From Emcibacteraceae bacterium (lineage in GTDB: Bacteria; Pseudomonadota; Alphaproteobacteria; Sphingomonadales; Emcibacteraceae), in NCBI GenBank assembly GCA_028281625.1, contig JANQJN010000159.1:1-35204 (forward strand): DNA of 35,204 bases, written 5' to 3'. Position numbers and translations under genes: made by a program. The notes under the pieces were generated by a model. That model had not been told where the DNA came from. It worked only from the letters and a program-made list of their open reading frames with translations, and searched no databases. Within the stretch, counting starts at the first letter, position 1. Every line of letters begins with the position of its first letter. This document shows positions 1,423 to 16,998 of this stretch, piece after piece.

Positions 1423-4400
1423 ATGTTTCAGAAGTATGGGGAAGCCGTGACCGTTAATCTCGTTAAAATATGTACAATGCTGATGTTGCTTGGTGCGAGC
1501 TTTGGAGTTGCCTTGGGGCAACAGCAAGCAGACAGTGAAAAGCAACTGGAAGCTGTACCGGTCAACTTGACGAATGAAGAACTTCAGTGGATTTCAGAAA
1601 ATCCTGTTATCAAAGTAACCAGTAAACTCAATACGGCGCCAAATGAATTTATTCGTGCGGGCAGTCCTGTGGGGTTTTCCATCGATTACATGAACTTGGT
1701 TGCAGAAAATGTTGGCCTCGAAATTGAATATATTTACGGCTATCAATGGTCCGAACTTCTTGCCATGCTTGAAAATAGGGAAATCGATGTATCCCACAAT
1801 ATTTTTCAAAATGATGAACGTGAGCAGTATTTAACTTTCACAGAACCCTACATGAATTTGGAACCAGCTTTCTTTGGATTGGCTGGCAGCACACCAGTGC
1901 ACGGAATAGAAGATTTACGCGGTAAAAGAATTGGCGTCGTAGCGGGCTGGGCGTTGGATGGGGCGTACCGACAAAAGTTTCCATCATTAGAATTTGTAAA
2001 TATCGCAAACTCACTGGATGCGGCTCTGAAAACGATTGACGGTGAAATTGATTTGTTTATTGCAACAAAATTTATCGCTGAATCCATTATCGAAACAAAC
2101 TTTATCACAAATGTGGAAATGGTTGGCACTTCCGAATTCCTGGAGGTTTCGAATAACGAAGGAGCGCGTATTGCTGTTAGAAACGACTGGCCGATCCTTC
2201 ATTCAATTCTTTCAAAAGGTATGGCGGCTATAACGGAAGAGCAGTATATCGGGCTCAATGAAAAATGGCTGATGCCCGCAAGTCAGGTTAGTGACATTGA
2301 TTTGTCCGAAGAAGAAGTGGCGTGGCTTGATCAGAACAAGGTCGTGAAGGTTGTTGTAGATCAGGCGTTGCTTCCGCTTGAATCAATTGATGAAAATGGC
2401 GAGATCAGTGGTATTTCAGGTGATTATCTGAAATTGATATCGGAAAAACTAAATATCCGATTTGAATGGGTTGGAAACGAAACCTTCGCGGAGGGTGTTG
2501 AACTAATACATTCAGACGAGGCCGATATGATTTCCATATACTCTGAGACTGGGGATCGGACAGATTATATGATCTTTACCGAAGGGTATATGACTCTTGA
2601 CCTCGTGATTTTTGGAAGACTTGGTGAAGACGTTTATGGGGATATGAACGGTCTTTATGGCCGCACAGTAGCGATGCCAAAGGGATGGGATACTACCGAT
2701 TGGATTAGAAGGGATTACCCTGGGATCAATGTTGTTGAGACCTCAAATAAAACCGAAGCCCTGAGGCTGGTTTCGGGAGGGGTGGTTGATGCGCATATCG
2801 GAAGCGTATCAACAACATCCTATAATCTAGTATCGCAGAATATTAATAATATGGTTGTCGCTGGTGTTACGCCATATAGTACCAGTATTTCTATGGGCAT
2901 TCGTGCGGACCTACCTCATTTAGCAAGTTCAATGATAAAAGCCCTGAATTCGATAACGGTTACTGAAAGAAATGAAATCAGCCAGAAGTGGATCGTGCTT
3001 CGAAATGAAGAAACAACAGATTATACGTTGGTTTGGCAAATTCTGTTGGCGGCAGCAGCGCTGTTTGCACTGATTATGGTTTGGAACTATAGCCTGCGGC
3101 AGGAAGTAGAGAGAAGAAAAAGCAGTGAAGAGAGATTCCGCCAAATTGCGGAAACAGTAGACGGCGTGTTTTTTATTTGCGAGGCCGATCTTAGTAAAGT
3201 CAAATATATGAGTCCCAGTTTCAGCGAATGGACCAACCTTTCCTGCGATGTTATTTACGAACATGCAGGAAAGTGGCTCAAGTTTGTTCATCCAAATGAT
3301 CAGAAAATTTTCAAGCAGTCCGTTGATCGGGCCATCGAGAGTGGGTTTACCAGCCGGCTTCCTGATTATAGAATTATCGACTGCAACGGTAAAACCAGAT
3401 GGATTGCGACCCAGGCGCATCCTATCTATGACGAGAATAGAGAATTGGCAAGTGTTGTCGGATTTATGACCGATATAACCACCAGAATCAGATCCCGGGC
3501 AAAGCTGAGCGAAATCAATAACCAGTTTCAAAATGCCTTTAACCATGCATCACACGGCATGGCTCTCGTAGGTACGGACGGTAAATTTCAAAGGGTGAAT
3601 AGTGCGCTTTGCGAAATCCTAGGTTATGAAGACTATGAGCTTCTTGAGTTGGATGTTAAATCGATTACACATCCAGACGACATAAACTTAAGCATGACGC
3701 TTATGCGCGAAGTAATCGACGGTGAGCGACTTTCGTTTCAACTGGAAAAGCAGCACATTCGAAAAAATGGCGCCGTTGTTCCAACTCAGTTAAATGTTTC
3801 AATGGTTCGAGATAATAAAGGTAGACCTATTCATTTTGTGGCCCAAGTACAGGATCTTTCGACACTTAAAGAGCGAGAAGAGCAGCTGCGACAGTCTCAG
3901 AAGATGGATGCTGTGGGTAAACTGACGGGTGGTATCGCACATGATTTTAACAATATTTTGGGAATTATCCTTGGTAATCTGGAAATCCTACAGGCGACAA
4001 TGCCAGAAGAGCCCACTGCCCAACAAAGGCTAGAGAAAGCCTTGAAAGGTGTAGATAGAGGATCCAGCCTCATCAAAAAACTGCTCAGTTTTTCAAGAAA
4101 CACACAGCCGAATACAGGTCCGATCAATGCAAATGAAAGCGTACTCAATCTGATTGACCTTATAAAAAGAACTTTTAAGGCGTCAATAACAGTAAAAGAC
4201 CAGCTTGATGAAAACTTGTGGCCCATTGATGTGGACAGTGGTGAACTTGATGATGCGATTTTGAATTTGGCGCTCAATGCCAGGGATGCAATGGAAGGCG
4301 ACGGAGAGCTCACAATTAAAACGGAGAATGTTGTGCTCGATGAGCAGCATCAAAACCGTAACCCAGGCAGCCAACTAGGCGATCATGTGGTTATTTCGGT

Positions 4401-5040
4401 CACGGACACCGGGGTCGGTATTGACGACGAGCATATGGATAAAATTCTTGAACCGTTTTTTACCACCAAACCCGTACACAAGGGTACTGGGCTGGGGCTA
4501 AGTATGGTGCATGGATTTGTTCAAAGATCAAACGGCCATATGAAGGTGTTCTCTGAAAAAGGCAAAGGCGCTACTTTCAAGATATATATTCCCAGATCGA
4601 AAGCAGTATCGTCTCTTGAAAATCAACTGATGACAGGCCAAGAAAAATTACCGAAAGGAAGTGAAACAATTTTAATCGTGGATGATGAAAAACATCTTTG
4701 TGATATTGCGCGCACTCAGTTAACGGATCTGGGGTATTCCGTTTACACAGCAAGCAGTGCTTCAAACGCACTTGAATTGCTGAGCAAAAATAAGAATGTG
4801 GATCTACTGTTCAGTGACATTGTTATGCCTGATAATCAGGATGGTTACAAAATGGCGAGCTCTGCACTTAAAATAAACCCCTATCTCAAAATACTACTGA
4901 CCAGTGGGTACTCGAAAGACCTTGATGACAATGTGTATGAAGATAGTGAACTATTTACAAATTTATCTTCAAATTTACTTCACAAACCCTATAACCGAAA
5001 AGATCTAGCGATCGCGATTAGACGGTCACTGGATCAGTAA
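1423..5040 (+). CDS. Hybrid sensor histidine kinase with two periplasmic solute-binding sensor domains (BvgS/EvgS-like)
   Basis: A 1205-residue inner-membrane kinase. Order: signal peptide (1-32); two type-3 solute-binding domains (about 56-285 and 300-526); one membrane helix (536-555); two PAS domains (about 569-690 and 700-815); HisKA with phospho-acceptor H840 in [11 protein letters not shown]; HATPase with NARDAM, DTGVGI and GTGLGLS; and a C-terminal receiver with acidic VDDE (1086-1089), D1132 in SDIVMP, and KPY. No Hpt domain follows, so onward phosphotransfer needs a separate partner. The ATG at 1423 has no Shine-Dalgarno; in-frame GTG at 1447, preceded by GGGGAAG, may be the real start. 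Its stop is 7 bp from that of the convergent response regulator. The ligand is probably an amino acid or other small organic molecule, judging from the domain family. Confidence 0.93.
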
Positions 5041-7335: not shown

Positions 7336-9774
7336 ATGAAAAAGTTACAGTTTTTAGCAAGTATCGCTTTTTTGGTGGTTGCGCTGCTCAGCGTAGCATT
7401 TTCACATGCGCAAAGTGTTGATGTCGATAATCTTCTGACAGAAGAAGAAAAAATCTGGATTGCGGAAAATCCGATCATCAAATCCACGAACGAACCGGCC
7501 TGGGCGCCGCTCGATTTTATTCGAAATGGTGAAGCGGTCGGTTTTTCAATCGATTATCTTAATTTGGTTGCGCAGAAAGTAGGATTGCAGGTCGAGTATA
7601 TCAATGGCTATTCGTGGGAAGAAATGCTCGCAATGCTCCGAAGGGGTGAGATCGATATTTCGCAAAGCATCATCCTAACCCCGGAACGAGAAGAATATTT
7701 GAATTTCACTGAACCCTACCTGGATATGCCGATGGTATATTTTGGCAGAAAAGGCGGAGAAAGGATAAACAGCATAGACGACCTGGCCGACAAGCGTATC
7801 GGCATTATCAAAGGTTCAGTACCTTACGGGATATACAAGGCCAACTATTCACATTTTAACCTGATCGAATTTGAATCTACGATTGACGCGCTAAAGGCTT
7901 TGTCAGCGGGTGCTATTGATGTAAACGCGGGAATTCTTCCGGTTTCACAGTTTATGATCAATACAAATCTTCTTCCGGGGATCGAAGTCATTGGTGATAC
8001 ATTTTTTCCCGAAACCAATAATAGTGAACAAATTCGACTGGCGGCGCGCAAGGATTTACCCATGTTGCATTCAATCCTCGAAAAGGGAATGGCCGCTGTC
8101 AGTGACGAGGAATTTACGGAAATCGCGATAAAGTGGCAAACGATCCAAACGAGCGCACAGGGCCTGGATATTGGCCTGACTGTCGAAGAACGGGAATGGT
8201 TGATGGCCAACCCGGTGATTAATGTTGGTGTTGATCCTGCGCTTGCCCCGCTGGAATTTATTAATCAGAACGGGGATATAGAAGGGATCGCTGGTTCTTA
8301 TCTTGATAAAATCTCGCAGCGCCTGAATGTGGAATTCAGATGGGCTGGAAATGAAACATGGTTGGAAGCGCTTGAAGCGATTAATAACAAAACGGCGGAC
8401 TTGCTAACGGTGGCAACGCCCACCGATGAAAGGCGTGAGTTTTTAATTTTCACCGATGGTTACATCAATATCAGCTACGTAATTTTCGCCCGTGAAGGCG
8501 GCGATGTTTTCGCTAATCTTGATACGTTAAACGACAGACGGATATCACAGGTCGAAGGTTTTGCCATCAGTGATTTTATTGCCCGTGATTATCCTGGTAT
8601 CGAAATCGTTTATACAGAAACAGCCGAAGAAGCCATCAGATTAGCATCCATCGGTGAAGTTGATGCTTATGTCGGCAGTATGCCGCTTGCTACCTACGCC
8701 ATCACCAATGAAGGTTATATCAATATGAGTGCAGTGGGTGATACCCCATACCGGGCGTCAAACGCGATGGGGATTCGTTCAGATTTACCTCTTCTCGCAA
8801 GTGCTATGAACAAAGCGCTTCGCGCTATTACGGAAGCAGAAAAAGCAGAAATTTCAAGAACCTGGCTGGATTTTAGAAGACCCGAAGTCGTTGATTACAC
8901 ACTTGTATGGCAGATCATTGGAATTGCGGGGATTGTCGTAATTATGATCATGGTTCGAAACTATAGTTTGCGCAAAGAAGTGGCCCGACGTCAAGTTGTT
9001 GAAAAACAGCTTATTAGACTTCAGGAAAAAGCGGAAAGTGCCCAAGCAGATGCGGAAGCAGCCAATATTGCCAAGTCAAATTTCCTGGCTAATATGAGCC
9101 ACGAAATCAGAACACCGTTAAATGCAATTATAGGCTTTTCCGATGCCATGCTTGCGGGTGTTGGTGGTGTAGTAACTGAGAAAAAACACACAGAATATTT
9201 GTCCGATATACGCGACAGTGGCGAGCATCTGGCAACAGTAATCAAGGATATTCTTGATCTATCCAAAATTGAAGCGGGAAAATGGAAACTCCAGGAAACT
9301 GAATTCTCACTTGATGACAATATTAGCGAAGCCATTAAAATGCTGAGTACCCAGGCCGAGGCCAAGGGCCTTTCAATAGATTATAGCCCCAGTGTTGAAG
9401 CTCAAGCGATCATGATTAATGGCGATGCTGTCGCGGTAAAGCGTATGTTTATCAACCTGATTTCAAATGCGATTAAATTCACTTCCCCGGATGGGCGTAT
9501 TACCTGCTCCATAGACAGGCTTAGAAATGGTCAGGTTGCGGTAAAGATCATAGATACTGGAGTAGGCATCCCTGCGGATAGGCTTTCACATGTGTTAAAC
9601 CCCTTTGAACAAAGCCACGAGGAGCACGATCTAAACGAAGAAGGAACCGGTCTTGGGCTTCCGATCGTTAAAAATCTCGTGGAACTTCACGGGGGAAAAT
9701 TTACTTTAAAAAGCGAAGTAGGTTTAGGCACCACAGCAACAATCAATTTTCCATCAAGCCGGATCGTAAGTTAA
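7336..9774 (+). CDS. Sensor histidine kinase with two periplasmic solute-binding sensor domains
   Basis: An 812-residue membrane kinase, clearly paralogous to the hybrid kinase at 1423-5040 in its sensor half; both share VGFSIDY, LNLVA or similar, INGYSWEEMLAML versus [13 protein letters not shown], and DYTLVWQI before the membrane. Order: signal peptide (1-25), two type-3 solute-binding domains (about 37-270 and 288-513), a membrane helix (523-540), a charged coiled-coil linker (about 550-580), HisKA with H589 in NMSHEIRTPLNAIIGFSD, and HATPase with SNAIKF, DTGVGI and EEGTGLGLPIV. It lacks PAS and receiver domains. The stop codon overlaps that of the convergent GMC gene by three bases. No response regulator is adjacent, so the OmpR-type protein at 5048-5782 is the likeliest partner. 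Confidence 0.92.
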   Translation: MKKLQFLASIAFLVVALLSVAFSHAQSVDVDNLLTEEEKIWIAENPIIKSTNEPAWAPLDFIRNGEAVGFSIDYLNLVAQKVGLQVEYINGYSWEEMLAMLRRGEIDISQSIILTPEREEYLNFTEPYLDMPMVYFGRKGGERINSIDDLADKRIGIIKGSVPYGIYKANYSHFNLIEFESTIDALKALSAGAIDVNAGILPVSQFMINTNLLPGIEVIGDTFFPETNNSEQIRLAARKDLPMLHSILEKGMAAVSDEEFTEIAIKWQTIQTSAQGLDIGLTVEEREWLMANPVINVGVDPALAPLEFINQNGDIEGIAGSYLDKISQRLNVEFRWAGNETWLEALEAINNKTADLLTVATPTDERREFLIFTDGYINISYVIFAREGGDVFANLDTLNDRRISQVEGFAISDFIARDYPGIEIVYTETAEEAIRLASIGEVDAYVGSMPLATYAITNEGYINMSAVGDTPYRASNAMGIRSDLPLLASAMNKALRAITEAEKAEISRTWLDFRRPEVVDYTLVWQIIGIAGIVVIMIMVRNYSLRKEVARRQVVEKQLIRLQEKAESAQADAEAANIAKSNFLANMSHEIRTPLNAIIGFSDAMLAGVGGVVTEKKHTEYLSDIRDSGEHLATVIKDILDLSKIEAGKWKLQETEFSLDDNISEAIKMLSTQAEAKGLSIDYSPSVEAQAIMINGDAVAVKRMFINLISNAIKFTSPDGRITCSIDRLRNGQVAVKIIDTGVGIPADRLSHVLNPFEQSHEEHDLNEEGTGLGLPIVKNLVELHGGKFTLKSEVGLGTTATINFPSSRIVS

Positions 9775-12474: not shown

Positions 12475-13683
12475 GTGAACAGTAAAATCTATAGCCAGCT
12501 TAGTATTATGATGTTTCTGCAGATCGGGATCTGGGGCGCTTGGTTCGTGACTCTGGGGAATTATCTCGCCAACATCGGCTTTAGTGGCACGGATATCGGC
12601 ACGGCGTATCTTACCAATAATATCGGTGCGATCATTGCGCCACTGTTCATCGGCCTTGTGGCGGACCGCTATTTTTCTGCGGAAAAAGTGATGGCCGTAC
12701 TCCATGTATTGGGTGCTGGAGTGCTTTATTATGTATCGGACCTTACGACAACATCCTCCATCATTGTGGGTCTTCTCATTTACAATGCATGCTATATGCC
12801 GACCATCGCGCTTTCCAATGCAGTATCGTTTAATCAAATGGATAAGCCCGATGAGCAATTCCCGCTTATTCGCGTGTGGGGCACCATTGGATGGATTGTC
12901 GCGGGGCTGACGATTACGTTTATATTGGGAACCCAAGTTGAAAATGTTGAAGCCACAGCGGTGCCTATGAAAATGGCCGCTGGTGGATCGCTCCTGCTCG
13001 GGCTTTATTGTCTCACTCTTCCCAACACCCCACCAAAAAGTAAAGGTAAAAAACCAACCATTGGCGAACTGCTTGGTTTTGAAAGCTTCGTGCTGCTGAA
13101 GGATCGCTCTTTCGCGATTTTTGCTCTTTGTTCGCTGCTTATTTCAATCCCGCTCGCGTTTTATTATGCATTTGCCAATCTGTACCTCAATGAAATTGGC
13201 ATGGAAGGGGTGGCGGCTAAAATGTCCCTGGGACAGGTTTCTGAGGTAGGCTTTATGGTGCTGATGCCATTTTTCTTCCGCCGCCTTGGCGTTAAATGGA
13301 TGCTGCTTGTTGGCATGCTGGCCTGGGTGGTGCGCTATGTGCTCTTTGGCTACGGTGATATGGATAGCCTGGCGTCACTGATATATCTTGGTATTCTCCT
13401 TCACGGCGTATGCTATGATTTCTTCTTTGTCACCGGACAGGTTTATGTGGATAAAAAAGCGGACGAAAAAATCCGCTCCAGCGCCCAAAGCTTTATCACA
13501 TTGCTTACTTATGGTGTGGGCCTTGCCATTGGTACCGCTGCATCTGGCCGCATCGTTGATGCCTTCACTACCGATGGCGTACGCGACTGGACCGGCATCT
13601 GGATGACCCCGGCAATCATTGCTGCTGTGGTGTCACTACTGTTCTTCGTGACCTTTAAGGATGAGAATAAGCTGGAGGGGTAG
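12475..13683 (+). CDS. MFS sugar/nucleoside:H+ symporter (NupG-like)
   Basis: A 402-residue transporter with twelve predicted membrane segments of the nucleoside:H+ symporter type, starting with LSIMMFLQIGIWGAWFVTLG and containing the inter-helix signature GLVADRYFSAEKVMAVLH. The start is GTG at 12475, preceded by a strong GGGAGGA four bases upstream. Members near GMC and isomerase-like genes are thought to import sugars or oxidised glycosides. It is divergent from the isomerase/GMC operon across a LacI-type operator. A decayed homologue of its last ~300 bp lies at 16690-16998, beyond the ECF operon. Confidence 0.88.
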   Translation: MNSKIYSQLSIMMFLQIGIWGAWFVTLGNYLANIGFSGTDIGTAYLTNNIGAIIAPLFIGLVADRYFSAEKVMAVLHVLGAGVLYYVSDLTTTSSIIVGLLIYNACYMPTIALSNAVSFNQMDKPDEQFPLIRVWGTIGWIVAGLTITFILGTQVENVEATAVPMKMAAGGSLLLGLYCLTLPNTPPKSKGKKPTIGELLGFESFVLLKDRSFAIFALCSLLISIPLAFYYAFANLYLNEIGMEGVAAKMSLGQVSEVGFMVLMPFFFRRLGVKWMLLVGMLAWVVRYVLFGYGDMDSLASLIYLGILLHGVCYDFFFVTGQVYVDKKADEKIRSSAQSFITLLTYGVGLAIGTAASGRIVDAFTTDGVRDWTGIWMTPAIIAAVVSLLFFVTFKDENKLEG

Positions 13684-13790: not shown

Positions 13791-14177
13791 TTACCTGTTG
13801 TTCAAACGCTGTCTAATTGTATTACGTCTATCAATAATAGCCTTTAGTTGCTCGTCTGATAGATGTTCCTGTAGGTCTTTTTCCAGTCTATCGTTGATCA
13901 CCGCAAATTCTTCTCTGGTTGCTTTTATAAGAGTTTCAACCTCTGTTCCCGAATTTTTAAGCAAGTGCAAAACAGCTTGTTGCTGATCCGGCGACATCTT
14001 ACCAATTATGTTAGAATACTGGCTTACAAAGCCCTCCTCTGTTGTGAACTCTTGGAAGCGATCCAGACGTTCATTTACAATCCGACCAACCAATGCTCCG
14101 CCAAGCAGTATCCCTAAAATTAAGGTAACTAATAGTATTGAAATGGCTTTCATCTTTTTCTTCTTTATTGATTCCAT
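13791..14177 (-). CDS. Membrane-anchored periplasmic sensor-like protein (Spy/CnrX-type)
   Basis: A 128-residue protein with a lysine-rich start, one N-terminal membrane helix (about 10-30) and a helical periplasmic part containing MSPDQQQAVLHLLKN and HLSDEQLKAIIDRRN. This layout fits the metal-resistance/periplasmic-sensor superfamily that includes CnrX, ZraP and Spy. It is the last gene of the operon, 8 bp after the anti-sigma gene, in an ECF/anti-sigma/sensor arrangement similar to CnrYXH. Few His or Met residues are present, so a metal ligand is not evident; it could sense envelope protein or lipid stress. The assignment rests on architecture and context. Confidence 0.6.
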   Translation of the reverse strand: MESIKKKKMKAISILLVTLILGILLGGALVGRIVNERLDRFQEFTTEEGFVSQYSNIIGKMSPDQQQAVLHLLKNSGTEVETLIKATREEFAVINDRLEKDLQEHLSDEQLKAIIDRRNTIRQRLNNR

Positions 14178-14185
14178 TGTATTTC

Positions 14186-14584
14186 CTAAAACAAAATTAA
14201 TGAAAAACTACTTTCATCTGGGAGAGCAAATAATGCGTCAACCAGATCTGCTTGAGGACTAGCCATCAACATATTACTGACCATTACCAGACAAACAGCG
14301 GCAAACGCCGGTGCAACTATTTTTGGGAAAAATTGGGCCAGCAATTCATCAAAACTAACACTTTTCTGATTTTGTATCCTCCGCATTACTCGGTTCGAAA
14401 AGCCAGCACGAAATTTTGGTGTCTCCTCATCATTAATTTTTAAACTGACTTCTTTTGCTTCAGCCAATCTTTTTTTAACCTGACTATCCTGCGCGCAAAG
14501 ATGCTCCAATTCCAATTTCTCTGTTTGAGTTAAGGTTTTATCGAGAGACTTCTCAATTAGATCATTTATATAATCTTCATTCAT
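14186..14584 (-). CDS. Putative anti-sigma factor (single-pass membrane protein)
   Basis: A 132-residue protein beginning MNEDYINDLIEKSLDKTLT, with a helical cytoplasmic part of about 85 residues, a membrane segment at about residues 88-108 (VAPAFAAVCLVMVSNMLM) and a short periplasmic tail. It starts 1 bp after the ECF sigma stop, the standard arrangement for a cognate anti-sigma factor. No zinc-binding HxxxCxxC motif is present. The assignment is by position, size and topology. Confidence 0.65.
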   Translation of the reverse strand: MNEDYINDLIEKSLDKTLTQTEKLELEHLCAQDSQVKKRLAEAKEVSLKINDEETPKFRAGFSNRVMRRIQNQKSVSFDELLAQFFPKIVAPAFAAVCLVMVSNMLMASPQADLVDALFALPDESSFSLILF

Positions 14585-14585
14585 C

Positions 14586-15134
14586 TCATTGCTCCTTTAT
14601 ATAACTGCTAAGTATTTTTCTGGCTCTTGAAAGTCGTGATAATACTGTTCCATTGGCAACTCCCAATATTTCAGATACTTCATTGGTGCTATATCCCTGA
14701 ACCAATCTCAGAACTGCCACCGAACGAAACTCGGGCTTCAGTTTTGAAAGTGCGATCTGAACAATCTGGGATTTTTCCAAAGCTTCCCCTTGGTTTGACA
14801 GTGATGCGCTTTCTTCAATTATTTCATCGTCCAAGCTTCTGAAGCGATCCAAAAATCTTTTCTTGCTCCTAATGTGATCTAGTGCGGCATTGATAGCAAT
14901 TCTCGTGATATAGGTTTTTAAACTTGCTTCTCCTTTATAATTACCCAAAGCATTGTAAAATTTTATCATCGCAATTTGCCCGACCTCTTCCGCATCATTC
15001 TGCCCCACCATACTAAACACTGTTGCAGCAACCACGCCTTCATAGCGATCTACTATTTCGGCGAAAGCGCGGTCGTTTCCGCTCTTGGCACGTTCAACGA
15101 GTTCCAGGTCAGTAAAGGTTTCGTAGCCCTGCAT
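14586..15134 (-). CDS. ECF-type RNA polymerase sigma factor
   Basis: A 182-residue sigma factor. Region 2 spans about residues 20-90 (RYEGVVAATVFSMVGQNDAE, then IAMIKFYNALGNYKGEASLK and TYITRIAINAALDHIRSKKR). Region 4 spans about 125-178 (LKPEFRSVAVLRLVQGYSTN, then VSEILGVANGTVLSRLSRAR). It would direct RNA polymerase to envelope- or metal-stress promoters and is probably held by the anti-sigma protein encoded next. It is the third gene of a five-gene minus-strand operon, and a GGAAT/CGTC promoter in front of that operon suggests autoregulation. Confidence 0.9.
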   Translation of the reverse strand: MQGYETFTDLELVERAKSGNDRAFAEIVDRYEGVVAATVFSMVGQNDAEEVGQIAMIKFYNALGNYKGEASLKTYITRIAINAALDHIRSKKRFLDRFRSLDDEIIEESASLSNQGEALEKSQIVQIALSKLKPEFRSVAVLRLVQGYSTNEVSEILGVANGTVLSRLSRARKILSSYIKEQ

Positions 15135-15177
15135 TTAACAGATGATCCTATCTTACACGACAATCCCGTTGATCACT

Positions 15178-16056
15178 TTACCGGGAAAACTTTCTGTCTG
15201 AAAGTTCTTCATTTTCAGCAGATCGTGGCTTCCAACCTGGTGCAGCGAACAAATACTTGGCCTTGTTCAGATACCCTTCAGCACACCAGGCATCACCAAT
15301 CATTTTACGCCATTCAAATGTGGTGATAATTAGCGGATTTCTAGATAGCACTGGTTCAACCGTTCCATAGTTGATCTCAATATCTGTGCGCTCCTCCTGA
15401 TATGTTCCGAACAAGACATCAAATATCATCAACACTCCTCCATAGTTTTTATCAAGATACTCCGGGTTAGAGGCATGATGTACTCTATGATTGGACGGTG
15501 TGTTTATTATTTTTTCAAGAAACCCAAGTCGTCCAACAAGCTCAGTATGGATCCAAATTTGATAAAACAGACCTACGGCAAGCATCACGAAAATAGAGAT
15601 CGGATGAAACCCGATTACCGCTAGTGGCGCAAAGAAGAATGCGCTTCCTGAGATTAGGCCAGTCCAGCCGAGGCGCCCAGCAACCGATAAATTCATATAA
15701 GGTGCTGTATGATGAACACCATGTGTTGCCCACAACCATCTGATCTCATGCGCCCATCTATGATGCCAGTAATACGCAAATTCAACAGCCAGGAAGCAAA
15801 TAATCAACATCTCTGGGCTATCGATTTCGAGCGTCATAATCCTGTACTCATATGCCCAGAAGAGTATCGTCGCTGCAATGCCTGCTGTCGCAAGATCAAC
15901 CGTTCTTTTTAGAAGGCCAACGGCCATAGATGCGATGCTATCCAGCCAAGGAAAAGCTGATCGTTTCATTGCTGTGTATATCAATGCTTCTAGCAAAACG
16001 AAGAATAGCAAAAAGATCAGAAATCCAAACTTACCCTCAATAGTACCCAATTCCAT
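15178..16056 (-). CDS. Sterol desaturase / fatty acid hydroxylase superfamily protein
   Basis: A 292-residue multi-pass membrane di-iron enzyme. The histidine clusters of the family are present: HHRWAHE, HGVHH and NHRVHHAS, among several hydrophobic segments. The start MELGTIEGK (ATG complement at 16054-16056) is chosen because AAGGAGAA stands just upstream; an upstream in-frame extension overlaps the preceding gene and looks non-coding. Such enzymes hydroxylate or desaturate membrane lipids, sterols or hopanoids. Its place between a Spy-like gene and an ECF sigma gene suggests lipid modification as part of an envelope response, which is inference. Confidence 0.85.
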   Translation of the reverse strand: MELGTIEGKFGFLIFLLFFVLLEALIYTAMKRSAFPWLDSIASMAVGLLKRTVDLATAGIAATILFWAYEYRIMTLEIDSPEMLIICFLAVEFAYYWHHRWAHEIRWLWATHGVHHTAPYMNLSVAGRLGWTGLISGSAFFFAPLAVIGFHPISIFVMLAVGLFYQIWIHTELVGRLGFLEKIINTPSNHRVHHASNPEYLDKNYGGVLMIFDVLFGTYQEERTDIEINYGTVEPVLSRNPLIITTFEWRKMIGDAWCAEGYLNKAKYLFAAPGWKPRSAENEELSDRKFSR

Positions 16057-16084
16057 AAGTTTTCTCCTTGAATCGAGGCCCCAG

Positions 16085-16492
16085 TTAAAGGCCCAAACGA
16101 TTTCGCAATTCCTTGCGGCGTTCGTCCCGGATGATTGCATATTCTTGCATTTGAGCGTCTGTTAATATGGTTTTCAGTTTGTTGTCCGTATTGTCACGAA
16201 CTTCATTCATGTCTCGACGCAACGCCAACTTCTTTCTAAAATTCAGCTTTGGCTTTTGACCTCGTTCAAACCCATATGATTTTAGTATCTCCAGGCTGGA
16301 CTGGACGTTTTCTTCAAATATGGGGCGTACTTCTTCCGCCTGCTCATCGCTTAAATTCAGTCGGGCCTTGGTTTCTTCGATGCGCTCGATAATCTGTTCA
16401 ATCTGCTCATCTGACACCTGTTGAGATTGGGCGTAGGATGATCCTGATGTAATTAATATTGCTATAAGTGCTTTAAGCATTATTTTTTTCAT
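16085..16492 (-). CDS. Spy/LTXXQ-like periplasmic protein
   Basis: A 135-residue secreted protein with a signal peptide ending SSYA-Q at about residue 22, followed by a highly charged all-helical region. LNLSDEQAEEVRPIFEEN and LTDAQMQEYAIIRDER resemble the paired repeats of Spy/CpxP-type chaperones or sensors. It is the first gene of the operon, 28 bp before the hydroxylase start, and directly follows a candidate ECF promoter. It probably works in the periplasm as a stress chaperone or sensor; no metal-binding cluster is visible. Confidence 0.7.
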   Translation of the reverse strand: MKKIMLKALIAILITSGSSYAQSQQVSDEQIEQIIERIEETKARLNLSDEQAEEVRPIFEENVQSSLEILKSYGFERGQKPKLNFRKKLALRRDMNEVRDNTDNKLKTILTDAQMQEYAIIRDERRKELRNRLGL

Positions 16493-16537
16493 GTCTCTAA
16501 CTCTGATAATCTGTTTTTAATTGGTTTTCGTTCCTTT

Positions 16538-16564
16538 GACGATCGAAGGAGGTAAAACATTCCC
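16538..16564 (-). promoter_or_regulatory. Candidate ECF-sigma promoter of the stress operon
   Basis: On the minus strand GGGAAT (complement of 16559-16564) is followed after 17 bp by CGTC (complement of 16538-16541). This matches the general ECF pattern of a GGAA(C/T) -35 and a CGTC/CGTT -10. The Spy-like start is about 45 bp further, giving a normal leader. An alternative GGAAC just downstream has no good -10. Confidence 0.45.
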
Positions 16565-16689
16565 CAAAAGGTATTTTTAGTTGCGGAGCATTTTTTTATG
16601 TAGTGGAAAACGAGCGCATATAATAATCGATGGTAAAAATTCAATGGATAGTGTTGAAGGTTTGATGACGATACGGATCGTTCAGGCTT

Positions 16690-16998
16690 GCAGATATATA
16701 GCGGGATTCCGCTTCACGGTGTCTGTTGCGATTTTTTCTTGGTTGTCGGGCAGGTTTATGTGGAAAAAAAAGCGGACGAAAAAAACCGCTCCAGAGCCCA
16801 AAGCTTGATCACATTGCTTACTTGTGGTGTGGGCCTTGCCATTGGTACCGCTGCATCAGGCCGCATTGTTGATGCCTTCACCACAGATGGTGTGCGTGAC
16901 TGGACCTGCATATGGTTGACCCCGGCAATCATCGCTGCCGTCGTACCCTGCTGTTCTTTGTGACCTTTAAGGATGAGAAAACGGATATTGCAGAGTGA
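16690..16998 (+). pseudogene. 3' remnant of a second MFS symporter gene
   Basis: This segment matches the last ~300 bp of the MFS gene at 12475-13683 on the same strand, with many substitutions but shared runs such as GTGGGCCTTGCCATTGGTAC. The translated match includes LITLLTCGVGLAIGTAASGR and VDAFTTDGVRDWT. A 1-bp deletion near 16945 (CGTACCCTGC versus GTGTCACTAC) shifts the frame just before the end; after it the remnant ends KDEKTDIAE-stop where the intact gene ends KDENKLEG-stop. The different tail indicates a remnant of a paralogue rather than a fresh copy. The 5' two-thirds are absent, cut near the ECF operon promoter. Confidence 0.88.

Follow-up and report, generated by a model that had tools for sequence, protein, structure and literature searches.

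A candidate autoregulated envelope-stress operon joining two Spy-like proteins and a membrane di-iron hydroxylase to an RpoE-type sigma factor

A five-gene operon in an Emcibacteraceae bacterium (Alphaproteobacteria; GenBank assembly GCA_028281625.1, contig JANQJN010000159.1) combines an extracytoplasmic function (ECF) sigma factor and a short anti-sigma factor with two Spy-like periplasmic proteins and a membrane di-iron hydroxylase. It lies at positions 13791 to 16492 on the minus strand of the window, the 35,204-nucleotide stretch of DNA that was analysed. With a probability of about 0.6, it is a self-contained, autoregulated envelope-stress operon in which a membrane-anchored Spy-like protein (Spy2) and the anti-sigma factor control an RpoE-type sigma factor, with a soluble Spy-like protein (Spy1) and the hydroxylase as output. 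Each component is of a known kind, but a literature search that lacked most subscription journals found no paper describing the combination.

All five open reading frames of the operon claimed in a preliminary description of this DNA were found in place, tightly packed and without a real gap. Transcription proceeds from the genes for Spy1 (16085 to 16492, 135 residues) and the hydroxylase (15178 to 16056, 292 residues) through those for the sigma factor (14586 to 15134, 182 residues) and the anti-sigma factor (14186 to 14584, 132 residues) to that for Spy2 (13791 to 14177, 128 residues). A single nucleotide separates the sigma and anti-sigma genes, and all remaining gaps are below 50 nucleotides. 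The hydroxylase start at 16056 is shared with the starts of its homologues and replaces a mechanical open reading frame start at 16140. The hydroxylase and the sigma factor pass curated family cut-offs; the anti-sigma factor, Spy1 and Spy2 pass none alone and were identified via their homologues. Generic scans for terminators and sigma-70 promoters of the window gave results near the shuffled expectation.

Evidence that these genes form a unit comes from their recurrence elsewhere. Among 147 genomes of the window's order, a relative of the hydroxylase is present in 126, and the three best foreign hydroxylases (60, 51 and 51% identity; the rest at most 48%) adjoin the three closest foreign sigma factors. 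A wider scan with a hydroxylase profile covered 84,980 species, each represented by a single genome, and the loci were read with profiles of all five proteins. The full five-gene order occurs in the window and at seven other loci in Alpha- and Gammaproteobacteria: two Sphingomonadaceae metagenome-assembled genomes (MAGs; loci L034 and L036), Kordiimonas gwangyangensis (L043), an alphaproteobacterial MAG (L044), Endozoicomonas arenosclerae (L037), Parendozoicomonas haliclonae (L039) and Oceanospirillales XeTr1 (L041). A further locus, L035, holds the first three genes and then reaches the end of its contig, giving nine sigma-type operons. Because the hydroxylase served as anchor, this survey could have missed sigma/Spy2 units that lack the enzyme outside the searched order. 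The preliminary description had grouped the hydroxylase with the sigma genes and held that their separation in other genomes would speak against this; instead, the best foreign matches coincide and the gene order is shared by two bacterial classes.

In a tree of 110 sequences, the module's twelve hydroxylases group in a single clade (support 99/97) and require one change, a value as low as which was reached in 0 of 500 shuffles. A Spy1 gene adjoins the hydroxylase in 11 of the 12 clade loci and in 0 of 69 other loci (Fisher p = 1e-12, with loci treated as independent, which they strictly are not). The exception, L040 (2087 to 4476), has no Spy1 gene; its enzyme follows a tRNA-like stretch, and the contig ends soon after it. 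A small gene pair resembling higBA by eye lies upstream at this locus. The module-clade threshold was passed only by the window's genome among 385 sampled Alphaproteobacteria and only by the query genome among 369 genomes of the gammaproteobacterial class. A search for a close plasmid-borne copy found none.

Two clade members keep Spy1 and the hydroxylase without this sigma unit. At L038 (Alteromonadaceae M269), the spy1-hydroxylase pair lies opposite a divergent gene pair whose best named matches are CpxR and CpxA. According to one study (PMC12802237), cpxP usually diverges from the cpxRA operon, and GTAAA-N5-GTAA is among the forms of the Cpx box used there; the sole GTAAA-N5-GTAA in 12.85 kb falls in the L038 intergenic stretch. 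The L038 enzyme is nested among gammaproteobacterial sigma-type members (support 95/95). At L042 (a Hyphomicrobiales MAG), the two genes of the pair are in swapped order, and after them come a different ECF factor, a small protein occupying the place of the anti-sigma factor and a Metal_resist protein of family PF13801. That the Spy1-hydroxylase pair is constant while its envelope sensor varies is the strongest hint to function, and the genes can be read as a pair of envelope-stress effectors that can be placed under interchangeable sensors. The envelope circuit proposed in the preliminary description gains support from the CpxRA-like swap and from the Spy/CpxP type of the proteins.

Autoregulation is suggested by an ECF-type promoter element on the minus strand at 16535 to 16564, GGGAATG-N16-CGTCAAA. 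An element of the type GGGAAT-17-CGTC lies 63 to 101 nucleotides ahead of gene 1 in all nine sigma-type operons, the window's included. The initial proposal read the -35 element as GGAAT, here corrected to GGGAAT, and because its GGAAT-N17-CGTC motif was derived from the window alone, recurrence elsewhere is an independent test. In six of the other eight operons, the exact motif precedes gene 1 by 62 to 100 nucleotides, against a chance expectation of about 0.0005 to 0.0009 per 250-nucleotide upstream stretch; the remaining two have GGGACT-N16/17-CGTC (CGTCTA) instead. The -35 element is similar to the RpoE sequence GGAACTT (PMC8103513). The promoter was not found in the CpxRA-like variant.

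A stricter pattern, GGGAATG-N16-CGTCWAA, occurs once per genome, at the operon, in all four genomes first searched, including the window's; it was fitted to those four sites, and its informative part is the lack of further hits. Because the strict promoter occurs only at the operon in the window's genome, the set looks autoregulated and mainly self-controlling, and the simplest reading of the motif counts is a sigma factor whose regulon would extend little beyond its own operon. A looser pattern gives two matches in the Kordiimonas genome, both within the operon and one immediately ahead of the hydroxylase gene. In the two Sphingomonadaceae MAGs it gives two operon matches each, the second before a sixth gene (L034, 8371 to 9110; L036, 8370 to 9110) encoding a 225-residue secreted protein of no known family, which would be an additional sigma target there.

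Two further promoter-like sites were noticed. In Kordiimonas (L043, 8245 to 8854), a GGAAT-17-CGTC without AA after the CGTC precedes the gene that immediately follows the operon, which encodes a glycine-zipper (YMGG-like) envelope protein. At L035 (position 6843), a GGAAT-17-CGTC lies between the hydroxylase and sigma genes and could provide a separate start for the sigma factor in that genome.

The sigma factor matches Sigma70_r2 and Sigma70_r4_2 in Pfam and is RpoE/SigW-like. Among solved structures, its profile is closest to RpoE, SigH and SigW, whereas CnrH is far weaker. One sigma match (genome G146, 36% identity) was rejected as a different ECF factor, whose gene neighbours encode a ferritin-like protein and a cytochrome c. 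The adjacent anti-sigma factor is assigned by position, hydropathy, residues and a conserved tail: a cytoplasmic N-terminal part, one transmembrane helix at about 89 to 107 with an invariant Pro and Asn, and a hydrophobic periplasmic tail of about 25 residues that is conserved in eight homologues. It has a weak match to an NCBIfam anti-sigma model (22.8 bits against a cut-off of 100). The protein was rightly described as zinc-less, having only H28, C30 and C98 and lacking the HX3CX2C motif of zinc-binding anti-sigma (ZAS) factors. RseA and RseB families were not reported for the anti-sigma factor or Spy2 at E values up to 1.

Both remaining proteins had been called Spy-like, and both assignments hold at the level of remote homology: Spy1 is a remote LTXXQ relative, and Spy2 joins it through homology. 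Spy1, a secreted soluble Spy/CpxP-like protein by its homologues and composition, has a signal-peptide-like N-terminus. Its own score against Pfam LTXXQ (PF07813) is 13.1 bits (cut-off 24.3), and 7 of 11 homologues give a weak match, the best at 24.2 bits; the Spy1 profile matches E. coli Spy with an E value of 0.0029. Spy2 has a transmembrane helix at 12 to 30 and a helical periplasmic part, and its model is all-helical (predicted local distance difference test, pLDDT, 82). The Spy1 and Spy2 profiles match each other in hhalign with 95.7% probability (E 8.7e-9), and the two proteins are therefore likely paralogues, one soluble and one tethered. Spy2 is proposed to be a sensor or a co-anti-sigma factor. 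Its strongly conserved stretch, in eight homologues, includes T18, G22, G26 and G31 of the transmembrane helix, and these residues could pack against another helix, such as that of the anti-sigma factor. A CnrX-type metal site is unlikely in either protein, because the window's Spy1 contains no His or Cys and no His, Cys or Met is invariant among eight homologues of Spy2.

The hydroxylase was correctly recognised as a membrane di-iron enzyme. It scores 100.9 bits against Pfam FA_hydroxylase (PF04116; cut-off 31), and the His-box residues H99, H103, H112, H115, H116, H170, H190, H193 and H194 are invariant in 11 homologues. A PDB sequence search with its profile gave no match. The PF04116 domain and His boxes are features that it has in common with OlsE, the ornithine-lipid hydroxylase, and other enzymes of the family. 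OlsE is the sole NCBIfam model matched, in all 11 members; however, the window's enzyme reaches 70.5 bits against an equivalog cut-off of 475 and falls outside OlsE.

Since a shared substrate must occur in every carrier, hopanoids, carotenoids and ornithine lipids are poor common candidates: none of the pathways has its markers in every one of the ten carriers, and these lipids were rejected as common substrates. SQS_PSY enzymes are missing from the four gammaproteobacterial carriers, and an OlsB-type acyltransferase is missing from two Sphingomonadaceae carriers. The hopanoid raised in the preliminary description is an unlikely substrate, with a full-length squalene-hopene cyclase match in one of the ten carriers. 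A general phospholipid or a lipid A acyl chain would fit better, and the substrate could differ between hosts. As the preliminary description proposed, the operon may sense lipid state and answer by hydroxylating a membrane lipid.

A working model for the envelope-stress operon can be drawn from these parts. At rest, the one-helix anti-sigma factor would tie the RpoE-type sigma factor to the inner membrane and, by analogy, its hydrophobic periplasmic tail would be engaged by Spy2. Under stress, Spy2 would change its hold on the tail as it becomes occupied by damaged envelope components, probably misfolded proteins or acyl chains that have become exposed, and the anti-sigma factor would be inactivated. 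The freed sigma factor would then transcribe its own operon from GGGAAT-17-CGTC. Soluble Spy1 may bind the offending material and help reset the switch, and the hydroxylase may modify the acyl chain of a widespread membrane lipid. Gene content and order, their conservation, the common promoter sequence, the homology of Spy1 and Spy2, the missing conserved metal site and the exchange of regulators come from the computation itself, whereas the signal, the direction of Spy2 control, feedback by Spy1 and the nature of the lipid are the conjectural elements of this scheme. Sensing by a tethered Spy homologue and resetting by a soluble one are plausible by analogy, because CpxP binds misfolded protein and, in work by Raivio in 2000 (title cited in PMC8831704), CpxP tethered to the inner membrane reportedly blocked Cpx induction. 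The operon shares the use of a Spy/CpxP-type protein as stress-induced output with the CpxRA-CpxP/Spy system of E. coli and relatives, but the two-component system gives way here to a sigma unit, accompanied by a second, tethered Spy-like protein and a co-encoded hydroxylase; one clade member, L038, has the cpxP-like position opposite CpxRA-like genes. CpxP itself is largely a negative autoregulator that acts on misfolded proteins (PMC12802237).

Other known systems resemble the operon in different respects. Like RpoE-RseA-RseB, it has an RpoE-type sigma factor and promoter and an anti-sigma factor with a periplasmic partner, but the anti-sigma factor is short and not recognised as RseA, and the partner is Spy-like rather than RseB. 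SigAb-AabA-AabB of Acinetobacter baumannii comprises a sigma factor, a 107-residue one-helix anti-sigma factor and a periplasmic helical protein, with anti-sigma activity shown for both partners, autoregulation and a small direct regulon (PMC12153292). Its gene order is the same as that of the sigma, anti-sigma and periplasmic-protein genes here, a likeness of layout that speaks for the envelope-stress reading; its promoter is GTCAAC/CGTT rather than GGGAAT/CGTC, and no hydroxylase or Spy1 gene is reported in its operon.

Several observations weigh against the envelope-stress reading. In the fold comparison, Spy and ZraP match Spy1 at Z 5.0 to 5.5, within the helical-bundle background and among many unrelated chains, and a structure search of the PDB with Spy2 returned unrelated helical bundles only, not clearly placing it with Spy or CnrX. 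The regulator swap rests on two genomes, one for L038 and one, a MAG, for L042, and the L038 matches (CpxR, 207 bits; CpxA, 287 and 243 bits) all lie under equivalog cut-offs. The conserved tail of the anti-sigma factor could also be a protease signal rather than a ligand of Spy2.

The preliminary description had likened the set to CnrYXH of Cupriavidus metallidurans, and a circuit of that type, with Spy2 as a CnrX-like metal sensor and Spy1 and the hydroxylase as metal-stress output, is an unlikely alternative. The likeness holds for layout, since both sets consist of a sigma factor, a short membrane anti-sigma factor with one helix and a membrane-anchored helical periplasmic protein; in addition, SigAb responds to copper (PMC12153292), and the L042 variant carries its Metal_resist protein. 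It fails for gene order (Y-X-H against sigma, anti-sigma, sensor), for sequence kinship and for sensor residues. Comparison by hhalign with the pMOL28 proteins found no detectable similarity to CnrX or CnrY, and homology was rejected; the match probabilities for CnrX were 0.8% with Spy2 and 0.2% with Spy1, against a single-sequence target and hence at low power. CnrYXH targets metal-efflux genes, whereas no metal transporter is found in the operon, among its neighbours or behind the extra promoter copies examined, and the missing His of Spy1 and the missing invariant His, Cys and Met of Spy2 argue the same way.

It is also improbable that the hydroxylase is a passenger or a general membrane-maintenance gene kept by genomic history, with the regulator governing mainly Spy1 and itself. 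The history of the window's copy lends this view something, as does L040, where the enzyme stands apart from Spy1. Neither the sigma factor nor a close hydroxylase is present in any of the 12 congeners in the order survey, and the gene content up to about 13660 is common to ten congeners, which lack the operon. The operon is AT-rich, its GC content being 0.38 to 0.45 against 0.46 to 0.54 for most of the flanking DNA; values are low in the stretch to 18000 as well. The operon is bracketed, as direct repeats, by a nucleoside-permease gene of the major facilitator superfamily (12475 to 13683) and a decayed copy of its 3' end on the plus strand (16670 to 16979). This copy, in pieces 83% and 94% identical, is closer to the window's own permease gene than to any congener's compared, was not seen in congeners and loses its frame near the end. 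From these features, the window's copy of the operon was probably acquired, and the decayed permease piece is a probable trace of its arrival with no part in its function. Against passenger status, however, gene order and promoter are conserved at 40 to 60% protein identity across two classes, the extra Kordiimonas promoter lies directly ahead of the hydroxylase gene, and Spy1 and the hydroxylase remain paired where the sigma unit has been replaced.

Sensing of the membrane's physical state, in which the glycine-rich helix of a ligand-free Spy2 packs with that of the anti-sigma factor and reports membrane order or thickness (in cold or solvents) for the hydroxylase to correct, is unlikely. The only strongly conserved part of Spy2 includes those helix residues, the anti-sigma helix keeps its Pro and Asn, and the effector comes from a family of membrane-lipid enzymes. 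Against it, the periplasmic domain of Spy2 is complete and homologous to Spy1, and proteins of the Spy/CpxP kind work through binding material in the periplasm (PMC12802237). More tentative than the envelope-stress reading itself, and possible rather than probable, is a fuller version in which the operon performs homeostatic lipid editing: the tethered Spy protein as sensor, its soluble paralogue as effector and feedback, the hydroxylase as the main output of a one-operon regulon, and the effector pair portable across envelope sensors (this ECF unit, an ECF/PF13801 set, CpxRA).

Elsewhere in the window, upstream at 1423 to 5040 and 7336 to 9774, two large proteins appear by eye to combine tandem periplasmic solute-binding domains with sensor-kinase parts.

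If the envelope-stress reading is true, the operon would link envelope-stress sensing directly to the regulated di-iron oxidation of a membrane lipid. With tethered and soluble Spy-type homologues encoded in one operon, it would also be a natural version of the old tethered-CpxP laboratory experiment. The reading predicts that the GGGAAT-17-CGTC promoter responds only to its own sigma factor and that the hydroxylated lipid appears only then; the carriers of the module include two named strains, Kordiimonas gwangyangensis DSM 19435 and Endozoicomonas arenosclerae ab112.

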